64,000 nucleotides of DNA, taken from positions 434,001 to 498,000 of the forward strand of contig NZ_JAEHFJ010000002.1 of NCBI RefSeq assembly GCF_016406085.1, in the 5' to 3' direction. Below the pieces are notes generated by a model. It did no database searches. It saw only the letters and a list, made by a program, of their open reading frames with translations, and had not been told where the DNA came from. Both the position numbers and the translations under genes were made by a program. Positions 6,221 through 63,572 of the stretch are shown piece by piece. Every line of letters starts with the position of its first letter. Position 1 is the first letter of the stretch. This DNA is from Aureibaculum flavum (lineage in GTDB: Bacteria; Bacteroidota; Bacteroidia; Flavobacteriales; Flavobacteriaceae).

Positions 6221-6225
6221 AAAAT

Positions 6226-7752
6226 ATGCGAATTCAAATTAATTACATCATTTCGAGTATTCTGATTATATCCTTAATGTCTTGCGGAGAAAAAAAAGCT
6301 GAAAAAGCGGAGGTCATAGAAAATAAACAGCCTAATATCATCTGGATTATGGCAGAAGATATGAGTACCGATTTGGCCTGTTATGGTTTACCGAATGTAA
6401 AAACACCCTATTTAGATAAAATGGCAAGTGAAGGTGTTCGTTTTGACAATGCCTTTGTAACCAACCCAATTTGCTCACCTAGTCGCTCTGCCATGATGAT
6501 TGGTACGCATCAAGTAAAAACAAATACTCATAACCATCGTAGCAATAGAGAAGTTCCTTTAGATAAACAGTTTACGCCTATGACTCAAAAATTACGAGAA
6601 GCTGGGTATACAACTATTTTGGGTAACCACTCCGTTATGAAAAAGGGACGTAAAATTGATGTTAATTTTAAACATGAACCCTTAGGAGCATGGGATGGAG
6701 AAACAAAATTTGGATTGTTTGATAAGTACGACAATTTTGAAAAAGCAGATGAACCTTTCTTTGCACAAATTCAATTAGTAGTAACGCATCGTGGTGATTG
6801 GTGGGATGAAGTTCGCGAAAAATCTAAACATCCTGTAAATGCAGATGCTGTTGAAATGCCTCCTTATATGGCAGATCATCCAGCCATTCGTTTGGATTGG
6901 GCTAAATATTTAGACCAAATAGAATACATGGATAATGAAGTCGGAATGATTTTTAAAGAGCTTGAACAAAAAGGAATGGCAGCTAATACTGTTGTTATTT
7001 TTATTGGTGACAACGGTCGTTGTAATATTAGAGGAAAGGGTTATTTGCATGACCCGGGATTAAGAATTCCATTGATTGTCTTTTACCCAGAGCAATTTAA
7101 AGGCGGTGAAATTAGAAAAGATGTGGTTAGTGCCACAGATATTACTGCTAGTATTTTAAATTTTGCTAAAATTGATATCCCTTCCTATATGACAGGACAA
7201 CCCATGTTTGATGCCAATTTTAACAGAGAATATGCTTATGGAGCACGTGATTTATGGGATGAAATTGAAGAAAAATCAAGAGCCATTACCTCTGATGAAT
7301 GGAAGTATATTAGAAACGATAAACCAGAGATTCCTTTTGATGCTCATCAAGCTTATTTAGAGTTTTATCGGCCTGCTGTTCATATCATGCGTCAACTTAA
7401 AAAAGAAGGAAAACTCACAGAGGAACAAAAATTCTTCTTTGAAGATTCTAAACCCGTTGAAGAATTATACAATCTAATAAATGATTCTCAAGAATTGGTC
7501 AATTTAGCTAACAATCCTGAATATGCCGATATATTGGTTAAAATGAGAGCAAAAACTAGAGATTTAGATAGCCTAATGAAGCCAGTAAGTGCTATTTACC
7601 AACCAAAATCTGTTCAAAGTACGGTGGATTTGGTGCAATGGATAATAGATGAACATCCAGATGTTCGTAAACAAATGGAAGACGGTGTAGAAGTTGGATT
7701 TAAAAAATGGGGAGCAATCTATAAAAAGTATCTAAAGAATAAAAAGAAATGA
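6226..7752 (+). CDS. S1-family sulfatase, heparan N-sulfatase (SGSH)-like (lipoprotein) 3
   Basis: A 508-residue sulfatase with a lipoprotein signal (Cys20 in SLMSC). The formylglycine motif CSPSR (Cys83) is intact, and WIMAEDMSTDLACYG (40-54) supplies the metal ligands. The usual GKWHLG block is replaced by GNHSVMKKGRK, as in the N-sulfoglucosamine sulfohydrolase-like branch of S1. The C-terminal portion (about 380-508) is longer than in the neighbours. Given the galactan context it more likely acts on an O-sulfate of galactose than on an N-sulfate. Its last four bases overlap the start of the GH2 gene (ATGA), implying translational coupling. Confidence 0.9.
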   Translation: MRIQINYIISSILIISLMSCGEKKAEKAEVIENKQPNIIWIMAEDMSTDLACYGLPNVKTPYLDKMASEGVRFDNAFVTNPICSPSRSAMMIGTHQVKTNTHNHRSNREVPLDKQFTPMTQKLREAGYTTILGNHSVMKKGRKIDVNFKHEPLGAWDGETKFGLFDKYDNFEKADEPFFAQIQLVVTHRGDWWDEVREKSKHPVNADAVEMPPYMADHPAIRLDWAKYLDQIEYMDNEVGMIFKELEQKGMAANTVVIFIGDNGRCNIRGKGYLHDPGLRIPLIVFYPEQFKGGEIRKDVVSATDITASILNFAKIDIPSYMTGQPMFDANFNREYAYGARDLWDEIEEKSRAITSDEWKYIRNDKPEIPFDAHQAYLEFYRPAVHIMRQLKKEGKLTEEQKFFFEDSKPVEELYNLINDSQELVNLANNPEYADILVKMRAKTRDLDSLMKPVSAIYQPKSVQSTVDLVQWIIDEHPDVRKQMEDGVEVGFKKWGAIYKKYLKNKKK

Positions 7753-10094
7753 AATATTTAAAAGGAATAGTATTATTGATAGTTGCAACTTTAACACTTC
7801 AGTTTTGTAAAAAAAATGACATTGTAGAAGCAACTCCTCTCAATGAGGATTGGAAATTTAGTAAAATTAATGAAACAGGAGCGTTAGATGAAAGTATTTA
7901 TTCGATTGCTTATGACGATTCTCAATGGGAAACTGTAAACTTACCACATACAGCCAATATTGAACCTTTAACTGTGAACAATCAGTGGCAAGGGATTTGT
8001 TGGTATCGTAAACGAATTACAATACCCAAAAGCGATAAGGATAAAAAAATATTCTTTGAGCTTGAAGCTGCTATGAATTATTCTAAAATTTGGATAAATG
8101 GCATCGAAGTTAAGGACCATCAAGGTGGTTATTTACCAGTTATAATGGACATTTCGAAATATGTAAAACCTGGAGCAGAGAATATTGTTGCCATACGATT
8201 AGACAATACTGATAATTTAGTTACTGGCCCAAAACCATTAAAACGATTAGACTTTAATATGTTTGGTGGATTATACAGAAAAGTAAACTTAACTACAAAA
8301 GAAAAAATTTACATCTCACATCCTGTGTTAGCAAATAAAATTGCCGGAGGAGGTGTTTTTATTACTTATCCTAAAGTTTCAGAAGCTGCCTCTATAGTAA
8401 ATATAAAAACACATGTTATTAATGAATATGAAAATTCAGAATCTATTGAACTTGTTCAAATTATTTTAAAAAATGGAAAGATAATACAAGAAAAGACATC
8501 TTCAAATATAGAGATTAAAGCAGGAAAAGATATTGAATTAACAGAGCAAATCACAATTGTTAATGCTGAATTATGGTCGCCAAAACATCCAAATTTATAT
8601 AGCTTAGAAACCAAAGTACTTCAAGATGGAAAAGTCATAGACCAACAAACAACAAACTTTGGTATAAGAGAATTTACTTTTGATGACAAGCATCAGCTTC
8701 ACATTAATGGTAAGAAAACATTTTTGAGAGGTGTTAATCGCCATCAAGAATATCCCTACATCGGTTATGCATTATCAGACAACGCACAATATAGAGATGC
8801 CAAGAAAATAAAAGATGGCGGTTTTGATTATATCCGTCTGTCACATTATCCACAATCTCCAGCATTTATGGATGCATGTGACGAACAAGGTCTTGTTGTA
8901 ATTGACGCCATAATGGGTTGGCAGTTTTATAATGATACCGAAGACTTTAGAAATTATTGTTATCAATCTGCAACAAACTTAATTAGAAGAGATAGAAATC
9001 ATCCATCTGTTTTGGGCTGGGAAGTATCGCTCAATGAAACTAAAGAGATGCCGGTTTATTTTATGGAAGAATTAAATAACATTACACATGCAGAATATCC
9101 TGGTGACCATGTATATTCATGTGGATGGAAGGATGATGTATATGATATTTACTTAGAAGCACGCCAACACAGAATATTGAGACCGCATCCCTATAAAGAA
9201 ATGCCAATTACAGTTTCAGAATATGGTGATTGGGAATACTATTCTAAAAACGCAGGTTTAAATCAAGATAAATTACCTAATGATGTGAGAACAGAAATGA
9301 GTAGTCGCCAAGCACGAGGTTATGGAGAAAAACGTATGATGCGTCAAGCTATTAATGTACAAGAAGCTCATAATGATAATTTAAGTACACGAGCTTATTC
9401 GGATAGTTATTGGGTAATGTACGATTATAATCGTGGTTATCATGATGATATAGAACGTTCTGGTTTGATGGATCTTTTTAGATTACCAAAACTAGCTTAT
9501 TATTTTTATCAGAGTCAGCGTGATATTGATGATGTCGCTGTGCTAAAACTTGCTACCTATTGGAATGATAAATCGCCAACGGATATAAAAGTATACTCAA
9601 ATACAGATGAAGTTGAGTTATACCTCAACGATGAATTAATTGCCAAACAGAAACCAGATTCAGGAAAGGATACTGAGAATTTAAAACATCCACCTTACAC
9701 ATTTAACCTAAATGAATTTAAACAAGGGACATTAAAAGCTGTGGGGTTTGTTGATGGGAAAAAAATCACTGAAGATATTGTAATTACACCTCAAAAACCT
9801 ACAAAGTTAAAAGTTTGGTTAGATGAAAGTGGTAAGACACCAGCTGCAGGTCAAAATGATATTCTTTTCTTATATGTTGCTGCCATAGATGATAATGGTA
9901 CTATAAATCCTGATTTTACTGAAACCATCACTTTAGAAATTAATGGAAGTGCAAAAGTGATGAATGTTGATGCCGTAAATGCAGAAGCAGGAATTGCAAC
10001 CGCAGTATTACAATTAGGTAATACTAAAGAAACGATAATTGTAAATGCAAATGCAGCAGGTTTGAGTGGAAACCATGAGTTTAAAATCGACTAA
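7749..10094 (+). CDS. GH2-family beta-galactosidase (lipoprotein)
   Basis: A 781-residue protein with a lipoprotein-type signal (Cys20 in LQFC). It shows the GH2 order: jelly-roll sugar-binding domain (about 30-185), immunoglobulin-like domain (about 190-300), then a TIM barrel opening with RGVNRHQEYPYIGYA. In the barrel, the segment WEVSLNE places the acid/base at Glu430 and SEYGDWE places the nucleophile near Glu491. C-terminal immunoglobulin-like domains follow (about 590-781). It should remove non-reducing beta-linked galactose. In the lambda-carrageenan model it would take the beta-1,4-linked unit after desulfation. It overlaps the preceding sulfatase by 4 bases. Marine GH2 members include other specificities, so beta-galactosidase is context-guided. 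Confidence 0.88.
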   Translation: MKYLKGIVLLIVATLTLQFCKKNDIVEATPLNEDWKFSKINETGALDESIYSIAYDDSQWETVNLPHTANIEPLTVNNQWQGICWYRKRITIPKSDKDKKIFFELEAAMNYSKIWINGIEVKDHQGGYLPVIMDISKYVKPGAENIVAIRLDNTDNLVTGPKPLKRLDFNMFGGLYRKVNLTTKEKIYISHPVLANKIAGGGVFITYPKVSEAASIVNIKTHVINEYENSESIELVQIILKNGKIIQEKTSSNIEIKAGKDIELTEQITIVNAELWSPKHPNLYSLETKVLQDGKVIDQQTTNFGIREFTFDDKHQLHINGKKTFLRGVNRHQEYPYIGYALSDNAQYRDAKKIKDGGFDYIRLSHYPQSPAFMDACDEQGLVVIDAIMGWQFYNDTEDFRNYCYQSATNLIRRDRNHPSVLGWEVSLNETKEMPVYFMEELNNITHAEYPGDHVYSCGWKDDVYDIYLEARQHRILRPHPYKEMPITVSEYGDWEYYSKNAGLNQDKLPNDVRTEMSSRQARGYGEKRMMRQAINVQEAHNDNLSTRAYSDSYWVMYDYNRGYHDDIERSGLMDLFRLPKLAYYFYQSQRDIDDVAVLKLATYWNDKSPTDIKVYSNTDEVELYLNDELIAKQKPDSGKDTENLKHPPYTFNLNEFKQGTLKAVGFVDGKKITEDIVITPQKPTKLKVWLDESGKTPAAGQNDILFLYVAAIDDNGTINPDFTETITLEINGSAKVMNVDAVNAEAGIATAVLQLGNTKETIIVNANAAGLSGNHEFKID

Positions 10095-12200: not shown

Positions 12201-15200
12201 ATGAAACAAAGAAAACTACTAACTAATAAATTATTGAGCAGGTATTTGTTCATTACTTTATTAATGTTATTACAAAGTAACATTTGGGCTCAAACTCAAG
12301 GTTTGACAGTTACAGGAACAATTACAAGTTCGGAAGACGGTTCACCAATTCCAGGTGCAACGGTGCAAATAAAAGGAACATTAACAGGTACAACATCAGA
12401 TTTTGATGGACTTTATTCAATTGAGGCCAAAACAGGAGATGTATTGATATTTAGTTTTATTGGTATGGAAAACCAAAATGTTACAGTAACGAAAGCAAAA
12501 TTAAATGTAATACTGGTACCGCAAGCCGAGAGCCTTGAAGAGGTTGTAGTGATAGGATATGGTACTGTTAAGAAAAAAGAATTAACAGGTGCCGTTGCTC
12601 AGGTAAAATCTGCAGATATAGATCAGTATGTAACCTCAGATGTTGCTTCAGCTTTACAAGGTCAAGTTGCTGGTGTTTCTGTGGTTTCTAACTCTGGAGA
12701 ACCTGGAGCACAATCAAGTATTCAAATTAGAGGGATAACTTCATTGACTTCAGGAGCAAATTCTCCACTATGGGTTGTAGATGGCATACCTCAAGTAGGA
12801 AATCCAGGTTTAAATATGAATGAAATTCAAACTTTTGACATTTTAAAAGATGCAGCATCAACAGCCGTTTACGGTTCTAGAGGAGCTGCAGGTGTTATTT
12901 TAGTTACCACAAAAAAGGGTAAGGAGGGTGTTATGAAAATTGATTTTACACATACTTATGGTGTTCAAAATCTAGCTGAAAGTGCTCCTTTAATGAATGC
13001 TAGTGAGCAAATAGCTTTTGAAACTGTAAAAGAGTCATTAGGTTTTGCAAATCATATTTCCATTTTGGATGCAAACCCAACATGGTATGATAATGATAAT
13101 GATTTTAGTCAATATGTATTAAATAATAATCCTACTACAACCAACTATTCTCTTAATGTTTCTGGAGGTTCGAATAAACTAACCTATAATTTTTCAGGTG
13201 GATATTTAAATACAGAAGGTACGTTAATAAATTCCTATTTAAAAAGATACAATGCACGTACTTCTACAACCTATACGACTGATAATTGGAAGATAAATAC
13301 AAGTATAGCTGTAACCCTTGAAAAAAATGAAGTCTCGAGTAATGGATTACTCGCAGTAGCTAGTCGTTACTCACCTTATTTCCCTTTGATTGATCCAGAT
13401 GCCGAAGCCATTTTCACTTCAGATGACGGACCTGTAACAACCCCTTTAAATAACTTGGCTCAAGCAATTAAAAGAGAGAATTTGTTTCGTAGAGATATTT
13501 TAAATGGAAGTTTAGATATTACACGTCGAATAACGGATGATTTGAGTTTCAATACACGTGTAGGAGTTTCTGTAAGAAATCAATTGCAAAAACAATTTGT
13601 CCCAGCATATACACTTGTAAATCCTGATGATTTTGATGATACGGAAACTGATCCGACAAAAAGTTTTGTGAATAGTGAAGCACAAAGATTATCAAAATTC
13701 AGTTGGGATGCTGGTTTGAATTACAACAAGAAATTTGGAGAACATACCATTGGTTTATTAGCAGCCGTAACGTTGGAAGAAGATACTTTTGAAGGTTTCT
13801 TTGGTCAAAAACAAGGGGTATCAAATAATGATATTAATGTATTGAACACTGCTACTATTAATCCAACAACAAATAGTTTATCTGGATACAACACCACTCG
13901 TGTAGGTACCTTAGGAAGAGTACAATACAATTACAAGGGAAAGTATTTGTTTTCAGTCTTAGGACGTTATGATGGTTCTTCTAAATTTGGACCTGACAAT
14001 CGTTGGGGTTTCTTTCCATCAGCTTCTGCAGCATGGAATGTGTCTGATGAGAATTTTTGGGAGCCTATCAATCATATTGTAAATAACTTTAAAATAAGAG
14101 CAAGTTATGGTGAAGTAGGTAATGATGCCATAGCGGATTATGTTTTTAGCAGTACCATAGGACAGGCTGCTGATTATATTTTTTCAGACAATGATGGATC
14201 TTTTAGTAATGGAACTGCAGTTAGAGATTATGCGAATGAAGTAGCAAAATGGGAAACATCAAAATCAATAAATTTTGGTATTGATTTAGGTTTTCTAAAA
14301 AACAAGTTTGTTTTAACGGCTGAATATTATAATACTAAAAAAGAAGATATGTTATTTCCAATTACGTATCCAAGTTCTTCCGGAGCTTTTAATCAAACAG
14401 GTAATGCCCCTTTCGATAATTTCGATCATCGAAACGTAGTATTAAATGTGGGTAACATGACTAATCAGGGTATTGAATTAGGAGCAAGATACAACCAGAA
14501 AATTGGAGAAAGTAACTTAAGGTTGAACGCTACTTTTTCTAAAAACACAAATGAAATTACAAGTATTTTTAATGATATCCCATCTATTCTTAATGGTAAT
14601 TCTGTTTTGGTTACTGGAGATAATCAGAATTCATTAATTACTGTTTTTGCAACAGGCTATGAGGCAGGTGCTTTCTTTATTTACGAGACGAATGGGGTCG
14701 TTCAAACAGATGCTCAGTTAGCAGACTATCAACAACTTGGAGGAAGAGAAAGTGCTCAAAAAGGAGATTTAATGTATGTAGATACAAACAATGACGGTCA
14801 AATAACCGCTGCGGACAAAGTTTATAAAGGAAGTGGGTTACCAGATTTTGAAATCGGCTTTAATATGAATTGGAATTATAAAAATTTCGATTTAGCCATG
14901 AATTGGTATGGAAGTGTAGGTTCAGAAATTATGAATGGTAACAAAGCAGTAAGTTATATTGCTGGTCGTCATCCAGATTTAAGTAACATGTGGACTGAAA
15001 ATAATTCTACTTCTAACATACCCAATTGGAGTGGAGCTAAGGGTGATATTAATCATAATGGAAATACTGATTATTGGTTAGAGAATGGCGATTATTTGAG
15101 GTTAAAATTAGTTACCTTAGGATACTCACTACCTAAAAACGTTTTAGAAAAAATAAACATTTCTAAATTTAGACTTTTTGTTTCTGCTCAAAATCCAATT

Positions 15201-43201: not shown

Positions 43202-43230
43202 TTAGACACAATTTTTTAATTAATAAATCT

Positions 43231-43931
43231 TAGGCAACCGAAACGAGGAAGCGATAGTATCTAGCAAATCCCTTTGCTTTACTATTGCGATGCGTAAATT
43301 GCCTAACGGTTTATTATGATGAGGAACAGGTTAACAGGTTGAGCGAAGCGAACCACTATAAAGGCGAAGCCGCCGGCGAGTGCCAGAACCGACACACAAC
43401 ATTGTTTAATCTTAAAAGTTGTGTGCCACAATTAGACTTTTTTGGCGATTTTATTGCGTAATACACGGTTTTCAAAAAGGCTTTTTCAGACTTTTTTAAA
43501 AACGTGTTTTACCTGCCAGCTAAATTCAGGAATCTGTTTTGGGTAACTATTATTTAAAAAGAACCTCAACATAAACTGCCAAAATAGATTTTGAATTTAA
43601 AAGCTCTTTGCCCGATCAAGCATTGAGGGCAATGTGCTTTTTGGCTTGCAATAAAAGTGACGAAAAAGTCTATGCAGTAGGTTCTGGCAAATGCAGGCGA
43701 GCCCAATTAAAGAGCGGTTACACCCAATAAAAATCTCGTGCGTTAGCACACCTTAAAGGGTTTGGGTGTAAAAGTAGCTATGGGTGAGCACCAAACATTA
43801 CACAGTGCAAGAAACGAATGGATTGTGCCGACCGAAGGCGAGGCATAAGGAATGGTGCAAGGCAAATTTCCAATTTGACGGCACGTTTTTGTACAGGGAT
43901 ACTGTTTGGTGCGAACACCGCTTAACCTGTT
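43231..43931 (+). ncRNA. Candidate large structured non-coding RNA
   Basis: No frame of useful length exists here, G+C is visibly higher than in the flanks, and many perfect inverted repeats nest inside each other. The pairs are: 43231-43237/43299-43305 enclosing 43251-43259/43280-43288 and 43264-43268/43273-43277; 43325-43334/43922-43931 (10 bp, closing almost the whole unit); 43382-43390/43680-43688 (9 bp); 43393-43400/43418-43425; 43608-43613/43627-43632; 43718-43727/43762-43771 (10 bp) enclosing 43738-43741/43746-43749; 43788-43797/43903-43912 (10 bp) enclosing 43825-43830/43879-43884. One pair is G-U only on the + strand, which mildly favours that orientation. I see no signature of RNase P, tmRNA, a group II domain V or a retron. 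Confidence 0.6.
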
Positions 43932-44137: not shown

Positions 44138-47100
44138 TTAGAAAGTTATACTGCCTACTTCAATTTCTTCTTCTTCCTCATCAAGTCTTAATATTGAAAT
44201 GTTCTTAGATTCATTTTCTTTTCCATAATTTCGATAGATGGTTATTTTTAAAATTGTAGGGCCCGATATTTTTTGAACATTGTCTGTAAAATAATCTATT
44301 GAAATTTTGTATTTTCCTTTTATCGCATTTTTTAACATGAATTCTTCTGGACCATAACCTTCGGTTAGATCTTCAGACATATGTCCGCCAATTTTTGTTT
44401 CGTTGTTTTTATAATAGGCCTCTTCTTTATTAGGATCTATTACCCACAAATCAAGATCTGTTTCTTTATGATTCCAATCTACTACTATTCTAATATCCAC
44501 AGGTAATTTTTTAAACTGTTTTCTAAATGATTTTTTTAGTTTTAATTTCTTACCATATTTATTTACTAATCTAGATAATTCGATATAAGCCACATGCTCT
44601 ATTCCATAGAATAACTCTTCTTCATCTTTTTCAAGAAGGTCTCCGTTATATATTTTATATAGTAAATCGTAGCTTTTTTTGAAATTACCTATTTCTTCAT
44701 ATGCTAAGGCTAAGTCTCTATATGACTGGGGCTCTTCAGGTCTGAGTTCTAATATTTTTTCATATACCAATACTGCCATTTTGTATTTTTTAAAATATTC
44801 CAATTTATAGGCAAGAGCTTTCATTAGTTCATAATTATCCAGCTCTATTTCCATTAGATTTGTCAGTACCGTTATTGCTATTTCTGAATTTCCTTTTTTA
44901 TCAAAGAAATCGGCTACATCTAAATAAAATGTAGGAATGTTAGCATATTCATCTCTTATTTTTAGATACCTATTATAAGCATCTTCAACAGTCTTTTCTT
45001 CTTCAAGTATTTTGATATAGGGTTCATCAGGATTCCAAGGTTGTAATTCCGTTTTACTTGATATTTTTGTATTGAATTCCTGAATGGATTCTGAGTTGTT
45101 TTCTACTCCTTCTTTTGTCGTAATCAATATAACACCATTAGCTGCTCTAGCTCCATAAATAGCAGATGCACTTGCAGCTTTTAGTACACTCATCGAATCA
45201 ATATCTTCAGGGTTTAAAGTACCCATGGGGCTTACCTCAACTACTACACCGTCAACAACATATAGTGGTTGTGATGTTTCTATTGAACTCGCTCCCCTTA
45301 TTTGTGTAGTCTCTGAAGCTCCAGGTGCATAAGTGACGTTTACACCTGTGACTTTTCCAGATAGAGCATTAGAAACTACAGTAGAGACTGAAGCAGTTAT
45401 TGATGCTTTTCGCTGTGATCCATAACCCACAACGACCACTTCATCAAGATTATTAGCACTTTCATCTAGTTTAATATTTATCTCATTTGTATTTTCAACG
45501 ATATAATTCGTTGTATCAAAACCTATAAACGAAAATTCAAGCTCATCATTTTGATTTGCGTTCAATGCAAATTTTCCATCAAAATCGGTATTTGTACCAT
45601 AAGTAGTTCCCTTTACAACAACATTTACACCTGGTAATGGTAATCCGTCACTTGCCAACACTACACCAGAAATTATATTCTTTGTTGAGTCTAACTGCAC
45701 ATTATTATTAATTGTAGCTACATCATTTGTTTCTCTAGAATTATTTTGAGGTTGTAAAGGTTCTTCCTCAACTTCTGTTTCTGTAGTTTGTGGTGTTGAT
45801 TCTTGTGGTGTGGTGTTAGCGACCTTTTTTTTAGTTTGATCTCTATTCCTTTTAGGAAATTTAGTTTTATACCAAGTTAAAATATCTTGATAGTCTTCAA
45901 AAATTTCTTCTTTTCTTTCTTGAATATCTTCTAATTTCCAAGCAATTTCTTCTTCTTTATACTTTACCAACTCTTTGTATTGTTGCTTCAGTTCTGCTGG
46001 TGGTTCAATTTGATATTTTACATAGTCTTCAATTCTATCTAGAATTAACATTGATGTAAAATCTGTCATTAAATGATACTGTTTGGCTAGTGAAATGATG
46101 GACTCTTTATTTTCTTCCTTATGTTGATTTAAGAATGCTAGTTTTTTCTTTGCCCATAATCTTTTTACCAACTTATTTTCATTATTCGCTTTGATATCTA
46201 TTTTGGAAGTTTCCGTTACTTTTCCGTTATATCCAAATAGTAACTCAATACTCGTATTTTTTTTGAATTTACCACTTATAGAAAAGCTAGAATTTACATT
46301 TGTGTTCTTTTTCGGATATACTTCAGTGACATTATTGGATGGTTTAATTCCTAAGAACTGGAAAGTTTCTTGTTTTAAAATATTGATTGCGTTTGTATCT
46401 GAAAGTCGAGCTAGATTGATATAATTAGCTCCAGATTTAGTAGCAATAGCTTCTAACAGTTCATGGTTTGATGATGTCATGGCATTCAAACAATATGTTG
46501 GACTATTTTTAGATAATTTAAAATCACCTAAATTGGACAAACCATCAGAGAACAATAACACCTCGTCCGTTTTATTCAATTTGGTTTTACTCAAATCAAA
46601 AGAAGTACCACCATCATAATGAATTGCTCTTATTTCATTTTCTAGGCTATCCATATTACCCTTAACAATTGAAAACGACTTGTTCTTACTTATAGAGTTG
46701 TTAATAGAAATAAATTGTATCTCAACATTCTCTAAATATTCAACATACTCTTTTAGTATCCTGATTTCTTTTTCAAGATTTCGAAATCGCATCGATAAGG
46801 ACGCATCCCATACAATTGTGATTTGTTTCGGTTTTACTTTTAGTCTTGTTTTAGGTGTACTTGTTTTATAGCTATAGAAGTATTCTTTATACGTGGCTAC
46901 ATTTTCTTTTGATGTATTCGTAGGTATTTCAATTGTTACGGATTCATTAGGGATATGATTCTTTTTACTTATTGTAGATAAGTAGGCGTTTCCGATTAAC
47001 TGAAAGTCTGTATTCTTATAGTTTTCGGTGTTTATTTTTGGGATGTCTCCATTATCGGGAATCATTAAGGTTAATGAAAACGAATCTAAGGTTTCTTTGA

Positions 47101-47587
47101 TGTTTAAAGGCAAAACATATTGTAACGTATTATCTGAAGTGTACAATTGTTGCTCATAGGTAATGACGATTTGTTTGTGCTTTTTTGGTAAGATTGGATA
47201 CACTCTTGCTTTATAATTATTGCCTTGTGTTTTCTCTAATAATCCAGGATCAATATTTTGTCGTACCGTATTTTCAAAAGCGACTCTCGCTAATTCTTTT
47301 TCCACGATTACGGCATCACGTAAATTTCCATTTACCTCCATGGCAAAATTTGATACCGATTGGCCTTGTCCTAAAGGAAAAGCTAATTCACCTTCTAAGG
47401 TTCTATCTAACTCGTTATAGAACTTCATATCATAGGTTGTGGTTGCTGTATTTCCTATAATATTTACATTAACTTTTAAGTCTGTCAATTTTAAGGTGCT
47501 TTTATCTTTGAGGAGAACTTTGGGAGCTTCTTGAGTAAACGCAATAGCATTTAACATTAGAAAACTAAGTATGATTAATTTTTTCAT
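44138..47587 (-). CDS. VIT-vWA protein with embedded TonB-receptor plug, TPR and DUF2135 domains
   Basis: A 1149-residue exported protein (signal peptide MKKLIILSFLMLNAIAFTQ). The domain order is: VIT (about 25-150, ELAFPLGQGQSVSNF); von Willebrand A-like (about 256-410) with the metal motif DASLS at 261-265; a charged linker (580-630); a carboxypeptidase-D-like regulatory domain (637-710, SGVVLASDGLPLPGVNVVVK); a SusC-type plug (712-826, DEVVVVGYGSQRKASI to ANGVILITTKEG); TPR helices (about 850-1010); and a C-terminal DUF2135 domain (about 1030-1135, DLDLWVIDP). The plug is not followed by a beta-barrel, so it cannot be a transporter. Its function is unknown. VIT/vWA proteins usually mediate surface or periplasmic protein contacts. 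It is monocistronic. Confidence 0.85.
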   Translation of the reverse strand: MKKLIILSFLMLNAIAFTQEAPKVLLKDKSTLKLTDLKVNVNIIGNTATTTYDMKFYNELDRTLEGELAFPLGQGQSVSNFAMEVNGNLRDAVIVEKELARVAFENTVRQNIDPGLLEKTQGNNYKARVYPILPKKHKQIVITYEQQLYTSDNTLQYVLPLNIKETLDSFSLTLMIPDNGDIPKINTENYKNTDFQLIGNAYLSTISKKNHIPNESVTIEIPTNTSKENVATYKEYFYSYKTSTPKTRLKVKPKQITIVWDASLSMRFRNLEKEIRILKEYVEYLENVEIQFISINNSISKNKSFSIVKGNMDSLENEIRAIHYDGGTSFDLSKTKLNKTDEVLLFSDGLSNLGDFKLSKNSPTYCLNAMTSSNHELLEAIATKSGANYINLARLSDTNAINILKQETFQFLGIKPSNNVTEVYPKKNTNVNSSFSISGKFKKNTSIELLFGYNGKVTETSKIDIKANNENKLVKRLWAKKKLAFLNQHKEENKESIISLAKQYHLMTDFTSMLILDRIEDYVKYQIEPPAELKQQYKELVKYKEEEIAWKLEDIQERKEEIFEDYQDILTWYKTKFPKRNRDQTKKKVANTTPQESTPQTTETEVEEEPLQPQNNSRETNDVATINNNVQLDSTKNIISGVVLASDGLPLPGVNVVVKGTTYGTNTDFDGKFALNANQNDELEFSFIGFDTTNYIVENTNEINIKLDESANNLDEVVVVGYGSQRKASITASVSTVVSNALSGKVTGVNVTYAPGASETTQIRGASSIETSQPLYVVDGVVVEVSPMGTLNPEDIDSMSVLKAASASAIYGARAANGVILITTKEGVENNSESIQEFNTKISSKTELQPWNPDEPYIKILEEEKTVEDAYNRYLKIRDEYANIPTFYLDVADFFDKKGNSEIAITVLTNLMEIELDNYELMKALAYKLEYFKKYKMAVLVYEKILELRPEEPQSYRDLALAYEEIGNFKKSYDLLYKIYNGDLLEKDEEELFYGIEHVAYIELSRLVNKYGKKLKLKKSFRKQFKKLPVDIRIVVDWNHKETDLDLWVIDPNKEEAYYKNNETKIGGHMSEDLTEGYGPEEFMLKNAIKGKYKISIDYFTDNVQKISGPTILKITIYRNYGKENESKNISILRLDEEEEEIEVGSITF

Positions 47588-52873: not shown

Positions 52874-54400
52874 TCATATGAATCGTTTTGATAATCTTCG
52901 TAATAAAGGCCTTGAGACTATTAATAAAATGAGACCGATAGAGCCAATGAATCGTAATGCAGGTTCGTCTAGTTCTCTGCTCATGTATCGCATGGCTGTG
53001 ATGATTCCCAGGAACAACACAATCATAAATGTCATATCGAATTCTTGTAATGCACCTACATGTTTAATAGATCTAATCTTTTCATTTGATAAGAGTGGTT
53101 CTTTACGGTATCGATGAATCATTTCTGTAATTGCTCTTGGGTTTCCGTGGGTTTGTTCATAGATATGGTTTCTGAATAGTTCCCAGTTCTCGACTTCTAA
53201 TCCGCCGGCTAATTGTTGAATCAGTTGCATACTGTATTTGCGATTTAGCGGTGTTAGTTTTAAGATTTCGAAATCCCATATAAATGAAGTATCGATTGCT
53301 TTTACTGCACGAGCTCCAGCAATAATTACAAATGCATTGGCCAGTCGTTCTATCGTTTTCTTGGCATTGGGTGTCACTCTGGTAATATCATCTATGATTA
53401 AAACATATTCTTGCGGCTCTACCGATGAGATGATGCTGTCGCAAAGATGCAAGGTGTTTTCTCGCTGTATTTTCTTTTTCACCTCATCTAGTGTGAAGTC
53501 ATTCCATAAGTAGGAAATAACGGTCTGTTTGTCTTTATAGAGATAAAGTAATATTTGAACTAATGATTTTTTAATACTTTCCGTATCATCTAATCTCAAT
53601 ATCTTTTTATCGGTTTGAATATTTTCTAACAAGTGTGACTTTCCTGTACCTATAGGCCCAATTACAATTGTATTTACCCCTTTGTTTGCATTGGTATTTA
53701 GTAGTTCTAATTCTTTATTTCTGCCAATGGTGAAATAAGATTCCGTTACATCGAGATTAATTAGTTTAGGTTTTTGGTCATTGTTAAAGCGTTGTTTGAT
53801 TTTTTGCCAAATGGTTGGTGGCTCTTTGGTAACTTGATTAATACGTTCTTGTAGTTTCTTCGTTGGTATGTTTGCATAAATTAGTGTTGTGTCATAAGAT
53901 TCATGGCCTAGCATTTCTTTAATTTCTTCTAGTGAAGTACCCGCTGCCAAATGATGCGTAGCAAAAGTATGTCTCAACGTATGCGGATGTACCTCATCTA
54001 AATCAATATTTGTTGTGATACGTTTTACCATTTTCCAAACGGTTTCTCTTCTTACATGGCCAAGCTTACTATTGCTAGGAAATAAAAACACATCCGGTTG
54101 CATTTGTAATTTAGATTGGTTTAAGTATTCCCCTAAGACGATATACAAGCGATCGGACAATGGAATTGTTCTTGACTTTTCTTTTTCCTTTTTCTTTAGT
54201 GATTTGACTTTAACTGTCCGTTGTTTGAAATCGAAGTTCTTAAGCTGAAGGGAAATGGTTTCAGATACCCTCATACCGCAATCGAGCATTAAGAGAATCA
54301 TAAGCTTATGCTTTTTGTTTTTGATATTGATCAGTAGCTTTTGTGTTTCTGCTTTACTGATAAAATTAATATTGTTATTCTTCATCTTCTTTAGTTTCAA
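52874..54400 (-). CDS. Tyrosine recombinase catalytic domain fused to P-loop ATPase with C-terminal membrane helices
   Basis: A 508-residue fusion. Residues of about 10-190 are a complete tyrosine-recombinase catalytic domain: Arg44 (GMRVSE), a Lys in the beta-hairpin near 65-75, HTLR (His140, Arg143), GHESYDTTLIY with His166 and the nucleophile Tyr175. The usual N-terminal core-binding domain is absent. Residues of about 220-430 are an AAA/STAND-like ATPase with GPIGTGKSH (248-256) and VLIIDDITRV (near 329-338). Two membrane helices lie at about 453-471 and 481-496. Strand exchange coupled to an ATPase at the membrane is the literal reading; I know no standard family with this order. The start could be Met1 or Met6. 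The former overlaps the upstream gene by 26 bases. Confidence 0.88.
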   Translation of the reverse strand: MKLKKMKNNNINFISKAETQKLLINIKNKKHKLMILLMLDCGMRVSETISLQLKNFDFKQRTVKVKSLKKKEKEKSRTIPLSDRLYIVLGEYLNQSKLQMQPDVFLFPSNSKLGHVRRETVWKMVKRITTNIDLDEVHPHTLRHTFATHHLAAGTSLEEIKEMLGHESYDTTLIYANIPTKKLQERINQVTKEPPTIWQKIKQRFNNDQKPKLINLDVTESYFTIGRNKELELLNTNANKGVNTIVIGPIGTGKSHLLENIQTDKKILRLDDTESIKKSLVQILLYLYKDKQTVISYLWNDFTLDEVKKKIQRENTLHLCDSIISSVEPQEYVLIIDDITRVTPNAKKTIERLANAFVIIAGARAVKAIDTSFIWDFEILKLTPLNRKYSMQLIQQLAGGLEVENWELFRNHIYEQTHGNPRAITEMIHRYRKEPLLSNEKIRSIKHVGALQEFDMTFMIVLFLGIITAMRYMSRELDEPALRFIGSIGLILLIVSRPLLRRLSKRFI

Positions 54401-58586: not shown

Positions 58587-59843
58587 TTACTTGTGGAAAG
58601 CTTCAGCAACAGCAATCGCTATTTTCTCAGCCATTAAAGGGGGAACGGCATTACCAATCATCTTATAATTGCAACTCATTTTTTCTTTAAATTCAAAATC
58701 AGTAGGGAATGATTGAATCAGTGCAGCTTCCTTGACAGTTATACTTCTCGCTTGGTTTGAATCAGGATGAATAAACATCAATCCATCTTTGTACAAATGT
58801 GCAACAATTGTCTGAGAAGGTCTGTCCCATTCCAAGTTTCTATATTTAGCATGTTTAGAACTCTTTCCTAAGAGGGAATTATAAAATTTAACTCGCTCAT
58901 TTACAGGTCGTTTATTCATTTTTTTTAAGATCCACTCCTCAAATATTTTAATATCACGCTCATTATGAAATCTTGGCTTATGATTTTCTTCTATAGTTTC
59001 GTCTTTATCAACTGGTACATAAGATATTTTTCGACCATTCATTATTACTATTTCTTTACTAGGTTTGAACCGAGGTAAATGACTTATAGCTTGCCTTAGA
59101 GTTACAGGAGTTTTTATTTTTTGACTATCAATTTCAGTATAGATAGTTTGTAAATTGAAATTATTAGTTTTAGAGGCTCTTCTTATTCCTACAATGATGA
59201 CTCTTTCTCGTTTTTGTGGAACTCCAAAATCACTAGCAGACTGTACAACACTTTTAAGTTCTTCAGGTTTTTTTATGTCATATCCGTGCTCATCGAAATA
59301 TTCATAAATTCTTTTTGTAACTTTTTTATCTCCAGGACAAGCACTTAACATTCCTGGAACATTTTCAAATACAAATACGGATGGTTGAAACTCCTCAACA
59401 ACTTTGGTAAAGCTTTCGAATAGATAATTTCGGTAATCATCTTTCATTGAGTTTTTATCCTGTGTTCTACCCGCAATAGAGTATGCCTGACAAGGAGGTC
59501 CTCCTATTACAAGGTCTACTTTTCGCTTACCAACGAGTCCTTTTAATCCATCCTTTTGGACTTCAATGTGATTGGTACCCCCATAGCTTTTAACAGTTTC
59601 GTCTTTCCAGTTGCCATTGATCAATTCTTCGGTTTTCTGAATATCAAAATGTAGGACTCTTTTTAAAGCATCCTCATTAGTATGCTTCCATTTTTTCTCT
59701 AGTCTAGATCTAAGAGTTCTCACCATTGGAATTTCCCATTCAACGTGGGCAAGAGCATCATATTTACCTGACATAATAAATCCTTCAGATAAGCCTCCGC
59801 AACCTGCAAACAAATCAATAAAAGTTAATTTTTTATTTTTCAT
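58587..59843 (-). CDS. DNA (cytosine-5-)-methyltransferase 2 of pair
   Basis: A 418-residue C5-cytosine methyltransferase. Motif I is DLFAGCGG (10-17), motif IV GGPPCQ with the catalytic Cys118, motif VI ENV (160-162), motif VIII VPQKRERVIIVG, then a target-recognition region (about 225-330), motif IX RPSQTIVAHLYKDG and motif X IGNAVPPLMA. It transfers methyl groups from S-adenosylmethionine to cytosine C5. It overlaps the upstream methyltransferase by 11 bases and is the last gene of the cluster. Its recognition region differs from the partner, so a different sequence or the other strand of an asymmetric site is expected. Confidence 0.95.
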   Translation of the reverse strand: MKNKKLTFIDLFAGCGGLSEGFIMSGKYDALAHVEWEIPMVRTLRSRLEKKWKHTNEDALKRVLHFDIQKTEELINGNWKDETVKSYGGTNHIEVQKDGLKGLVGKRKVDLVIGGPPCQAYSIAGRTQDKNSMKDDYRNYLFESFTKVVEEFQPSVFVFENVPGMLSACPGDKKVTKRIYEYFDEHGYDIKKPEELKSVVQSASDFGVPQKRERVIIVGIRRASKTNNFNLQTIYTEIDSQKIKTPVTLRQAISHLPRFKPSKEIVIMNGRKISYVPVDKDETIEENHKPRFHNERDIKIFEEWILKKMNKRPVNERVKFYNSLLGKSSKHAKYRNLEWDRPSQTIVAHLYKDGLMFIHPDSNQARSITVKEAALIQSFPTDFEFKEKMSCNYKMIGNAVPPLMAEKIAIAVAEAFHK

Positions 59844-61263
59844 CTTGCTTAATACGGTCTAATACATTTTTAAACTCTTCTGCAAAAATACCTCCTAACA
59901 ATGGTGGTACAGCATTTCCTATTTGTTTTAGCTGATTTCTAGTACTTCCTGTAAAGAAATACCAATCTGGGAAAGATTGTATTCTAGCAGCCTCTCTAGG
60001 TGTAATACTTCTAGGATGTTCACCAGGGTGTACATATGAATTTCCATCTGTTTCTAAATGAGCTATTATTGTTTTTGAAACACTTTCAGGGTTAAGTTTA
60101 AAATATTTATCACCAAATCCTTTTACTTTTTTATTCCCATTTTTATCGATAATAACCCCATAAGTAACTTTTGAAAGTGCTTCTTCATTCACAGGATCAT
60201 TTAGGTATTTTCCTGCTACAAGATTTTTATAAATAAATAAATCTCGCTCATTATGGTATCTTGATTTATGGTTAAACAAATACTTAGGTGTTATTAATTT
60301 ACCGTTATACGTATTAATAGAGTTAAGGTATTTATTACTGCTACTTTTACTTATTAATTTACTGTAAGGTTCATCAGAAATGTTCTTTCCGAAACAAACC
60401 CTCATATTACTAAATGGAACTTCTGCGTCCTCTTTATAATTGTTAGGTTTAGGATTCGATTTTATCTGAGGTAAATCGTAAATCACATCTTTTAATTTTA
60501 ACGAATCCTGTTTTGTTTTAATAATTTCTTCAAAAATATCAGATGCATTAATATCATATTTTTCAGACAGGTCTTTTCGCACTCCAATAAAGAAAATACG
60601 TTCCCTGTTTTGGGCAAGACCAAAATCTTTCGCATTTAGGATATGAGAAGAAGCATTATAACCAAATTTTCCTGTATCTGTTAATGATTTTTCAATCAAA
60701 TCCCTATAGCCTGAAGCAGAAGCTAGACCTTTTACATTTTCAATCAATATAAGTTTCGGCGATAGTTTTTCTGCAAATTTTAAATAATATTTAAAAAGCT
60801 GATTTCTTGGGTCGTCAATAAATCCCTTGGTTCTTTCCTCTAAAGTAGCTTTTTTAGAACGACCTATCATAGAAAATCCTTGACAAGGAGGACCGCCAGC
60901 AAGAACATCTATGTGATTTATGTTCGAAAGAATATTCTTTATAATGTCATTATCCTTAATAGGAGGAACCTTTTCTCGAAGCTCAACTTCTTTATTCGTT
61001 TCTATAACCATATGTCCCTGCATATCATAAGTCACTTCACCGTTGCCTAAATGTTCGTAAAGTTCTTTTATATCTCCAAGAATCACACGTTCTTGATTAG
61101 TTTCAGGATGTGTTTTTTTTAGGTTTTTCTTAAAAGTATTTAAGGCCGGTTCAGCAATATCATTCGCTAATTCAAGGTGAAAACCTTTGTTTCCGAACCC
61201 AATTGAAAGCCCTCCTGCACCAGCAAATAAATCTATATAATTGTATGTTTTTTCTCTACTCAT
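59833..61263 (-). CDS. DNA (cytosine-5-)-methyltransferase 1 of pair
   Basis: A 476-residue C5-cytosine methyltransferase. Motif I is DLFAGAGG (11-18), motif IV GGPPCQ with Cys127, motif VI ENV, motif VIII LAQNRERIFFIG, motif IX SKTIIAHLETDGN and motif X IGNAVPPLLGG. It has an insertion at about 65-105 after motif III and a long recognition region (about 240-400). It lies 137 bases after the AIPR gene and 11 bases into the second methyltransferase gene. It likely protects host DNA from the nuclease components encoded upstream. Confidence 0.95.
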   Translation of the reverse strand: MSREKTYNYIDLFAGAGGLSIGFGNKGFHLELANDIAEPALNTFKKNLKKTHPETNQERVILGDIKELYEHLGNGEVTYDMQGHMVIETNKEVELREKVPPIKDNDIIKNILSNINHIDVLAGGPPCQGFSMIGRSKKATLEERTKGFIDDPRNQLFKYYLKFAEKLSPKLILIENVKGLASASGYRDLIEKSLTDTGKFGYNASSHILNAKDFGLAQNRERIFFIGVRKDLSEKYDINASDIFEEIIKTKQDSLKLKDVIYDLPQIKSNPKPNNYKEDAEVPFSNMRVCFGKNISDEPYSKLISKSSSNKYLNSINTYNGKLITPKYLFNHKSRYHNERDLFIYKNLVAGKYLNDPVNEEALSKVTYGVIIDKNGNKKVKGFGDKYFKLNPESVSKTIIAHLETDGNSYVHPGEHPRSITPREAARIQSFPDWYFFTGSTRNQLKQIGNAVPPLLGGIFAEEFKNVLDRIKQDEK

Positions 61264-61400
61264 AGAAGCCTTAAAAATACATTGATTCTTCCAGGGTAAA
61301 AAGCCTTTTTGTTAAAAAACATAAAAAGCCTAACTAACCTAAAATCAAATTATTAAAAATAAAGGTGATAGTATTCTTGTTTTACACCAAAAATAAAAGA

Positions 61401-63572
61401 TCAATTTAAATCTAAAAGATCATCTTTTAAAACTTCATTAAATACTCTATAAAGATCATCTAAATATATTTTCAGATCGGTAAATTTCTTTTTTATAATT
61501 ACACCATTTTTGTTATTGCAATCAATAAGATATAATTTATATGTTTTAGGACTAATTTCTGTCAGTTTAGAATTTGGTCTAAAATGACCTTTCATTAAAC
61601 TAAGATGTCTTCTACCATATAGAGACATCCCATCTTTCATATTTGTTTCGATTTCATTTTGCATTCGACTATGAAGCTGCCTGTATCGATCAGGTGAAAA
61701 AATAATTTTATTCATTTCTTTCACCATTAATTCATACTTACTATCTAAACTAAATTCTTTAGATGTGTTTTTTTTGATTTTCTTAGGGACACATACGGGT
61801 AATAATTCGGTAAATTTTTCTATTTTATTCCAATCTACTTTTGTTAATATTTTATCCCAAGAATCTTTCTTTTTACAAGCTTCATCCAATCGTCCATCAT
61901 CTAAGTTTTCAAGTAAAAGCTGATTTATATAGGTCAAAAACGCTTTAATACTCAACTGTGGTATTTCATCTAGTTTATTATTATCCCATACCGCTTGAAA
62001 ATCAATAGTCTTATTTGTTTTAGACAAGAATTCTTGAACTAAAGATATAGAATATGCTAGTACATTTTTTCTGATTCTTCCAATTGCATTCTTTCCTGCA
62101 CCATACCTTGTTTTTAATAATTTATAAAAAATAAAAGACCCGACTAGGTTAGAATAATATTCTTCGCCTATTTTTTTGTTTTCAATATCAAAATAATCCC
62201 TTAAGAAATTATATCTTTTTTCCGCACTAGCAACAGAAATAAATGGTTCTATTTTTTTTCCTATTGCACAGAAGTATAAAATTGTTAAATCTGATTTTTC
62301 TATTTTATTACTTTGAGGAAAAAGGTTTACAAAGTAATTTACGTTTTTACTTAGATTTTTTTCAAGTGAATATTGGCCTCTTGTACGTTCAAAGTAATAA
62401 TAATTGTTTGAAGCAGGACTTCTGAACTTTTTAGAACAAGTGTGCAAATTGATTAAAAATTCTTCATTACTTGATAAATCTGATTGTTTTACTGCATTTT
62501 GAAGGTTACTATTTTTTGCAATTGTTGATTGTATCTTGACTGAATCAATATTTCTTCTGATTTCAGTTATTTTTGCCATAACATTCACCTTGTCTAAATC
62601 AACATTTACCTTAGTTTTTTTTGCTTCTTGAGAGGCAAAGAAAATCGAAGATGTAGTTTGTCCACCGTTTACAATTTGAAAATTTTTAAATGTTTTAACA
62701 GATTTATCTTCATTTAAAATTATTTCAGATACAGTTATACATAGCCCGTTATTATAAGCTAAAAACATTTCTGGTGCATTTATTAAAGTATCTTTTATTC
62801 CTTTATTTACTTTAATTCTACTAGATAAAAACGACCTTACATTACTCTCTAATAATCGACCACCAAAATCACTATAGATATTATAAAGAAATTCACCAGG
62901 CAAGATAGTGATAGCTGTACCATAACTAGAATTTCCTATCTGTGGTTTAAGAACATTTATCGGTTTACTATAAAAATCTTCTACTTCAATATCTAAATTT
63001 TGATTACTTTTATGAAGTCTTTCCAACTCTTTTATGTCATAAATTCTAAAATTGTAATCAATATCAGAATCGTAATCTGGTTTTGAAATAATCCTAGTGA
63101 CGTCTACTTCTTTTTTGTTTACTGCTGTATTATTAGTTAATAAATAACAATCTATTTTTACAATATTATTTTTTATCCCTGCTTGAAACTCTCTATTTAA
63201 TGCAGATAAAATATTTGCTTTGGGAATATTATATTCATCATGTCTAATAACATAATTTAAAACCCTATATAACTGTTTGAAAACTTGTTCAACATCTTTT
63301 AAATTTAATTTCCCTGCTTCATCAAAATTATTATAATTTGCAACAAAAAGAGATAAAACAGTTTCATTTTCATTTATACAAAAACCATTAATTTTTAAAT
63401 TTCTTCCACCATCATTTTCTTTAAAAAAGGGGGAGTGTTCAAAACTAGAAATCAATGAAGAATCTGTTAAATATTCTGAAACAATTTCACAAAAAGATGA
63501 TTCGCCATTTAATTGAGGGTCTTGTGAAATTTTCTCCTCTATTAATGATTTTAATGTTCCAAAATAACTCAT
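61401..63572 (-). CDS. AIPR-family protein (abortive infection phage resistance)
   Basis: A 723-residue cytoplasmic protein of the AIPR family (PF10592). The family core is visible as NVRSFLSSRIKVNKGIKDTL near 246-265, APEMFLAYNNGLCITV, FQIVNGGQTTSSIFFAS and DLSSNEEFLINLH. AIPR proteins occur in abortive-infection and restriction-like clusters; many are thought to carry a divergent nuclease. The start overlaps the DUF4420-type gene by 4 bases. With a PD-(D/E)XK protein and cytosine methyltransferases it forms a recognisable restriction-like cluster. Confidence 0.9.
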   Translation of the reverse strand: MSYFGTLKSLIEEKISQDPQLNGESSFCEIVSEYLTDSSLISSFEHSPFFKENDGGRNLKINGFCINENETVLSLFVANYNNFDEAGKLNLKDVEQVFKQLYRVLNYVIRHDEYNIPKANILSALNREFQAGIKNNIVKIDCYLLTNNTAVNKKEVDVTRIISKPDYDSDIDYNFRIYDIKELERLHKSNQNLDIEVEDFYSKPINVLKPQIGNSSYGTAITILPGEFLYNIYSDFGGRLLESNVRSFLSSRIKVNKGIKDTLINAPEMFLAYNNGLCITVSEIILNEDKSVKTFKNFQIVNGGQTTSSIFFASQEAKKTKVNVDLDKVNVMAKITEIRRNIDSVKIQSTIAKNSNLQNAVKQSDLSSNEEFLINLHTCSKKFRSPASNNYYYFERTRGQYSLEKNLSKNVNYFVNLFPQSNKIEKSDLTILYFCAIGKKIEPFISVASAEKRYNFLRDYFDIENKKIGEEYYSNLVGSFIFYKLLKTRYGAGKNAIGRIRKNVLAYSISLVQEFLSKTNKTIDFQAVWDNNKLDEIPQLSIKAFLTYINQLLLENLDDGRLDEACKKKDSWDKILTKVDWNKIEKFTELLPVCVPKKIKKNTSKEFSLDSKYELMVKEMNKIIFSPDRYRQLHSRMQNEIETNMKDGMSLYGRRHLSLMKGHFRPNSKLTEISPKTYKLYLIDCNNKNGVIIKKKFTDLKIYLDDLYRVFNEVLKDDLLDLN

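Follow-up and report, generated by a model that had tools for sequence, protein, structure and literature searches.

What kind of element is the non-coding stretch that lies beside a STAND-type NTPase gene in the flavobacterium Aureibaculum flavum? We addressed this question in a window of 64,000 nucleotides (contig NZ_JAEHFJ010000002.1, positions 434,001 to 498,000 of the forward strand), in which a preliminary description had marked positions 43231-43931 as an unrecognised large structured RNA beside the STAND gene, perhaps part of the defence locus. The window copy is a divergent member of a family of large structured RNAs not in Rfam 15, here called family A. A second family, B, is unrelated to it in sequence, and A and B alternate between the same flanks. 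The best explanation, to which we give a probability of roughly 0.7, is that A is a stand-alone large noncoding RNA gene of an undescribed family, which would act in trans and would also serve as an anchor for cargo exchange.

Relatives and distribution of family A

A DNA search of the genus returned only the window element itself, at one place in its own genome, and nothing in the 16 other members. At the level of the taxonomic family, 28 of 397 genomes matched something (own genome included, here and in the following counts). The good matches cover a 96-base core, query positions 494-589 or window 43693-43788, and the best match of the window core in other genomes reaches E 1.2e-17 at 82%. 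Ten short matches (23-52 nt: L013, L015-L020, L025, L026 and L028) were dropped; the 19 relatives kept were aligned with the window over the core using MAFFT (alignment A1), and a model built from A1, R1, recovered 50 places in 40 of the 397 family genomes. Positive genomes have 1-4 copies. The window core, itself among the 20 building sequences of R1, scores 89.5 bits against it.

A model R2, built from the 50 places, found the RNA in 3 of 394 genomes across the phylum, all of the same family as the window, and in 8 of 296 genomes of the order, including 3 from another family (f59). Because strict filters and a small number of candidates per genome were used in scoring these large samples, the counts are lower bounds. 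The core pattern recurs in 81 stretches of a genome collection. All but five of the 80 listed are from Bacteroidota, with Lutibacter, Bizionia, Winogradskyella, Hanstruepera, Mesonia, Psychroflexus and Crocinitomix among the hosts; the other five (Eremiobacterota, Thiobacillus, Cupriavidus, Dehalococcoidia and Cohaesibacter) look like chance matches. The core pattern of A was found in 0 viral contigs, and blastn of the window copy, L066 (family A) and L227 (family B) against phage and plasmid records gave no match, leaving a phage origin of family A unsupported.

A cmscan search of Rfam 15 (4227 families) gave no match for family A at the gathering score, the window element included, in keeping with its having been called unrecognised. 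At E<=5 there are few matches, all far below their gathering scores.

A conserved and covarying fold

Family A has a conserved, covarying fold on the + strand with sharp ends at its closing helix. We aligned the window element with 36 other full-length elements; of the 50 places, the 13 left out are L094, in which the 3' motif is absent, and 12 that lack the 5' motif, some of them because they lie where a contig ends or close to it. The 37 copies are 497-1095 nt long (the window copy was counted as 605 nt in this survey). The 5' end is sharp, mostly (G/A)CAGGTAATC followed by CGAGCCG-C-GCGAG-TGAGCAAGGGTG, and most copies end in GAACACC-TTATTACCTGC. The closing helix P1, GCAGGTAAT/ATTACCTGC in the relatives, joins both ends of the element and covaries at 3 of its 9 pairs (8 cells).

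In all, the 37 copies have 152 consensus pairs with 93.1% of cells paired, and 92 of these pairs show at least one change on both sides with pairing kept. Such changes fill 531 cells. Sliding the partners by 1-3 columns leaves 70-100, and the highest number in 100 permutations is 181; the 28 copies under 90% identity still have 397 of them, in 88 pairs. Ten copies of ~960 nt have 212 consensus pairs (~44% of nucleotides). In the core, RNAalifold on A1 gave two nested helices and a 2-pair stem with both-side changes in 5 of 17 pairs, and a second alignment of 50 sequences fitted to the model (A2) has them in 14 of 17 pairs and 150 cells, against 5-21 when slid. The proposal of a large structured RNA is thereby upheld by homologues and by their strong covariation. 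On the + strand G-U pairs number 348 and A-C pairs 51, and the consensus energy is -208.6 on the + strand and -174.6 on the - strand; both observations favour the + strand.

The copy in the window

The window element has a folding energy of -205.7, against -158.1 (standard deviation 5.5) for 20 dinucleotide shuffles, or z -8.6. An inverted-repeat search recovered 43371-43393/43677-43699, 43433-43457/43648-43672, 43326-43345/43919-43938 and 43788-43800/43900-43912, bearing out the long-range helices of the preliminary description. These helices exceed chance because compensatory changes keep them in relatives; the one at 43382-43390 takes about the position of the relatives' GC..GC and GGGT..GCCC pairs in the 37-copy alignment. 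P1 has 13 bp here with one G-U, and AACAGGTT is present twice on the 5' side of the element, the second copy giving the longer P1 helix. The 10-bp pairing described earlier (43325-43334 with 43922-43931) is a genuine match, but the better closing helix lies one register further in, at 43333-43345 with 43919-43931. We set the start of the element at 43333 because this second-register P1 is the minimum-energy pairing and matches the closing helix of the relatives. A structured element does occupy the stretch originally delimited, but its conserved part begins near 43333, and 43231-43324 lies outside the part alignable with relatives. A separate hairpin can be seen by eye at 43230-43306 (TTAGGCAA...TTGCCTAA), just before the RNA starts and not within the conserved element. 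The high G+C content (0.39-0.43 in the element, 0.25-0.30 in its surroundings) and the lack of a coding frame were correctly described: the longest start-codon frame overlapping the element is 58 aa.

Constant neighbours and exchangeable cargo

Copies of A sit in changeable islands with varying defence or metal cargo. In stretches of 3.4-16 kb around the 49 other family-A places, the 5' side usually has a small module of one of two kinds. One is built on a 251-aa protein that matches no Pfam family, frequently accompanied by DUF5675 and a small protein of ~80 aa; the other is built on DUF6266, frequently accompanied by DUF6943. Some loci also have an HTH_17 protein. One or the other of the two main proteins is found at 38 of the 44 A loci having at least 4.5 kb upstream. 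The predicted structure of the 251-aa protein (mean predicted local distance difference test score 68) has a beta-sandwich domain behind a low-confidence N-terminal half; Foldseek returned generic beta-sandwich domains (best E 1.6e-3), which is uninformative, and sequence searches of the PDB gave chance-level matches only.

Cargo lies between module and RNA as well as past the RNA, and includes AbiEii, RloB/AbiL, type I restriction, CARF-PDDEXK, Septu PtuA, ApeA-type, DUF4238, PIN and heavy-metal efflux genes. Our Pfam and PADLOC tallies used one representative per cluster and listed 25 of 93 and 25 of 59 neighbour families, and hence show variety, not frequency. Besides the module and helix-turn-helix clusters (0-5), each protein cluster is confined to at most 8 of the 50 loci (frames within 7 kb), and a tie to one cargo protein is not supported. 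The STAND protein has no homologue among the frames of the 49 other stretches. A link between it and the RNA is therefore not supported, and it looks like incidental cargo, not part of the RNA; the RNA is instead associated with islands of changing defence or metal cargo. Of 60 loci scanned, 7 have a transfer RNA (tRNA) gene close to the module, and in L082 an integrase-like gene (phmmer match) stands between tRNA and module.

In 32 of 36 loci the gene next downstream converges on the RNA, as expected of an independent transcript. The nearest upstream gene is on the + strand in 13 and on the - strand in 24 of 37 loci; in 16 of the 37 it is divergent and starts 22-73 nt from the 5' end of the RNA, which places its promoter close to or inside the element. 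These 16 loci would suit a cis-acting leader or regulator of adjacent cargo genes. We judge such a role improbable, since the neighbours change on both sides, the downstream gene mostly faces the RNA and the upstream gene may lie on either strand.

Exchange of cargo is apparent from the flanks. Among 74 locus pairs with elements alignable at 78% or more across 300 nt or longer, both immediate flanks are common in 3, only the upstream flank in 8, only the downstream flank in 5 and neither in 58. RNAs that are 96.8% (L054/L055) and 98.4% (L052/L056) identical have only the downstream flank in common, those of L055/L057 (93.0%) only the upstream one, and those of L053/L055 (94.7%) and L058/L059 (95.6%) neither. 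In the locus pairs read closely, flank identity breaks at the RNA ends. This pattern would follow from homologous recombination within the RNA or the module. A site-specific step is not needed for it, although one may contribute.

The preliminary description had also allowed that the element may be an RNA-based mobile element; that reading would fit the data, but so does recombination around a fixed RNA. A non-autonomous mobile DNA repeat with P1 as terminal inverted repeats would explain the precise ends, the patchy distribution, the few copies per genome and the near-identical copies in different genera with different flanks, such as L052 and L056, which differ upstream. It is very improbable in view of the single place in 34 of the 40 positive genomes, the recurrent neighbour module and the strong compensatory change inside the element.

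A second giant RNA in the same slot

A search of 199 family genomes for PF19781 (DUF6266), with hits above 290 bits taken as strong, gave 58 places, 32 strong and 26 weak. All 32 strong hits are accompanied by a giant RNA: 13 have A within 4 kb and 19 (L225-L243) have B. As a control, 17 of the 26 weak hits were examined; neither RNA accompanies any of them, the only matches being two stray ones of 39 and 35 nt. Searching for A at the B loci, R2 with filters off, run on 13 of the 19 loci, gave a single chance-level match (12.8 bits, E 0.9), and blast at all 19 gave 24-nt matches only, in one locus. Ten B loci (L226, L227, L234-L237 and L240-L243) have long flanks on both sides in common with A loci. 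The swap is seen in L242 (B) and L054 (A), which are 95.6% identical upstream over 930 nt and 87.2% identical downstream over 1363 nt; the downstream identity begins 21 nt past the end of A, and L054 has an extra cargo gene before A.

Measured copies of B are 581-906 nt long, with the exception of L229 (1,767 nt including an insertion). B is present in all 19 loci, the fetched stretches of L232 and L239 holding only its 3' part and its 5' part, respectively. Fourteen copies have 200 consensus pairs, and pairing holds in 96.6% of cells; both-side changes number 80 cells in 35 pairs, against 8-17 cells with slid partners and a maximum of 34 over 100 permutations. Because similarity among the B copies is higher than among the A copies, their covariation is weaker evidence. 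The strand signal of B is 381 G-U against 7 A-C pairs and -276.6 against -220.1 kcal/mol between strands. A model of B, R3, found it in 22 of 254 family genomes (27 places) and once in the A stretches, in L069. There, A (8163-8260, - strand) and B (13461-13606, + strand) lie in one island and point outward from a DUF6266 / 251-aa protein block between them.

In L229 an insert of ~1 kb (~5455-6505) splits B near its position 350-390, and in L239 B is not resumed after ~5523 in the fetched stretch. From these interruptions, the RNA itself may host cargo. Introns may likewise carry genes, and the split copy, together with the size of the RNAs, would fit a degenerate group I or group II intron or another known ribozyme. 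The Rfam scans of A and B, however, returned no intron model at threshold, and B had no match at the gathering score and sub-threshold matches only inside B; we find an intron hardly credible. Near weak DUF6266 paralogues, L258:2956-3167 and L266:1737-1948 are a 212-nt non-coding stretch, 79% identical, which is possibly another RNA; a search of the weak DUF6266 loci for a third RNA gave short common non-coding stretches only.

The conserved fold might also be that of single-stranded DNA, with A acting as a site like an origin of transfer (oriT) or single-strand origin, or as a folded recombination site, and B as another type of it. The islands carry recombinases, a DnaC-like helicase loader gene (in the window, with relatives in 5 other loci) and, in some, tRNA ends, the cargo changes at the element ends, and a strand-specific G-T/G-U excess suits one DNA strand too. 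We nevertheless think this unlikely: 152 (A) and 200 (B) consensus pairs are far more than such DNA sites are known to have, A and B are unrelated in sequence despite common neighbours, and among the neighbour families listed no constant relaxase or integrase gene stands beside the element.

A proposed trans-acting RNA as anchor of cargo exchange

We thus favour a stand-alone, trans-acting RNA gene. The RNA would be transcribed from just upstream of GCAGG, and the folded molecule would act in trans, alone, as an oligomer or with the DUF6266 or 251-aa protein of its island. What stays constant is the RNA together with the protein module, so homologous recombination within these two would exchange the defence and metal genes that lie between or next to them, and the RNA would also anchor this exchange.

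Several observations weigh against this explanation. Six of the 44 loci (L060, L087, L092, L099, L100 and the window) have neither protein; the window copy has neither within 7 kb upstream, and the search of its genome for DUF6266 gave none. The link to the proteins is one of neighbourhood only, mostly at a distance of 1-4 kb and with DUF6266 usually on the opposite strand, and the sole structural clue to the partner is a generic beta-sandwich predicted at low confidence. The reverse strand of the window element folds equally extremely (z -9.5), so that energy alone cannot assign the strand, and a one-strand G-U excess is also compatible with a folded single strand of DNA. Transcription of A is predicted from its sequence, and the promoter signal in its favour is weak: in 31 upstream sequences a -7-like box, TAnnTTTG, has offset -12 as the top of 52 offsets (3.03; next 2.84, mostly ~2.1), and no -33 box stands out.

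Going further, the island slot in its complete form may have to hold a giant RNA, A or B, as interchangeable "alleles" of one function. These would form an RNA particle, or an RNA-protein machine with the DUF6266 or 251-aa protein, that serves the island through its spread, its dominance over other islands or the control of its defence cargo. This is a tentative proposal, with the odds somewhat against it. The alternation of A and B could be likened to rival toxins or replicons that replace each other at one locus.

The island in the window

Up to 36760 the left flank matches another genome (G002) at 98% identity, after which it diverges; in G002 an integrase-like gene can be seen by eye ~2.7 kb past its EEP gene at the site equivalent to 36760. 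To the right of the RNA, a DnaC-like ATPase (helicase loader) has homologues in four other A loci and one weak match, and a gene without assigned function has homologues in four other A loci. The recombinase, ATPase, methyltransferase and AIPR/MzaE cargo on this side (Table 1) marks the window locus as an island too. The fusion in the recombinase-AAA protein looks unusual.

Table 1. Coordinates of the RNA, its parts and nearby genes in the window, with one example of family B
Feature	Position	Strand	Basis or remark
Family-A large structured RNA, window copy	43333..43931	+	core DNA match, R1 score, full-length alignment
Closing helix P1, 5' arm AACAGGTTGAGCG	43333..43345	+	minimum-energy fold; corresponds to the GCAGGTAAT arm in relatives
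Closing helix P1, 3' arm CGCTTAACCTGTT	43919..43931	+	minimum-energy fold; full-length alignment
Additional upstream AACAGGTT copy, gives alternative P1 register	43325..43332	+	sequence, inverted repeats
GCCAGAACC with GGTTCTGGC, 9 bp	43382..43390 with 43680-43688	+	inverted repeats
Long-range helix	43443..43457 with 43648-43662	+	consensus helix of 14 pairs, 6 changed on both sides
Most conserved core	43693..43788	+	helices 43711-43715/43777-43781 and 43718-43727/43761-43771, plus GGGTGAG
3' domain	43782..43919	+	closed by GGGTG (43782-43786) / CACC (43916-43919); contains 43788-43800/43900-43912
STAND-type NTPase, 2010 aa	36860..42892	-	best PADLOC match Avs1b, E 2.6e-24, residues 269-630 only
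VIT / carboxypeptidase-regulatory / Plug / DUF2135 protein	44138..47587	-	convergent, 3' of RNA
Phage-integrase domain (residues 13-178) fused to AAA / weakly NB-ARC-like ATPase	52874-54400	-	
Two cytosine methyltransferases and AIPR protein matching MzaE	58587-63572	-	further defence cargo
Family B example	L227:4792-5522	+	in A's slot beside DUF6266

Comparison with known systems

Integron attC sites are short folded sites of up to ~150 nt at gene-exchange boundaries. A is likewise folded and placed at exchange boundaries, but its length is several times theirs, its covarying fold is strand-specific and, unlike attC, it was not seen in tandem arrays. In a check for an integron integrase, the window recombinase proved to be fused to an AAA domain; the neighbour families seen were the 25 of 93 and 25 of 59.

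The large ornate bacterial RNAs are recognised by a length of hundreds of nucleotides, many covarying helices and long-range closing pairs, all of which A has, and B too, on weaker evidence since its copies are more alike. ROOL RNAs, at ~600 nt, are in a similar size class to A and also ornate, with neighbours that differ from those of A. OLE RNAs are found in Gram-positive bacteria, and the hosts of A and B are Flavobacteriales. GOLLD, ROOL and OLE were none of them listed in the Rfam 15 scans of A and B, at the gathering score or at E<=5. GOLLD is like A and B in size and ornateness, but A and B have no match in phage records. As PMC12286853 describes them, GOLLD is large, ornate, phage-encoded and of poorly understood function, sometimes with tRNAs in its linker, and ROOL is an ornate RNA that forms an RNA-only nanocage. 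PMC9723947 gives OLE as an RNA of ~600 nt with an intricate structure and conserved segments that is part of a ribonucleoprotein. Flavo-1 (RF01705) is a Bacteroidetes RNA of unknown function according to PMC2864571, and its 76-position model has no match to A or B. A Flavo-1 copy lies in L230, ~0.8 kb from a tRNA beside DUF6266. In the literature, mainly openly available articles and including the accessible parts of PMC2864571 and PMC10671443, no description of A or B was found.

We call A and B new families within the large ornate bacterial RNAs, because GOLLD, ROOL and OLE are nearest to them in kind and not in model, and because the literature covered holds no description of either; the common slot is their new feature. 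They mark cargo slots in flavobacterial islands and in this way point to defence genes. For the three large ornate classes solved in PMC12286853, functions "remain poorly understood" according to that source. A and B add two families, replace one another naturally and have a candidate protein that recurs beside them; they thereby offer comparative material for the role of giant RNAs, which named hosts such as Lutibacter, Bizionia, Winogradskyella, Hanstruepera and Mesonia, among others, allow to be tested directly.
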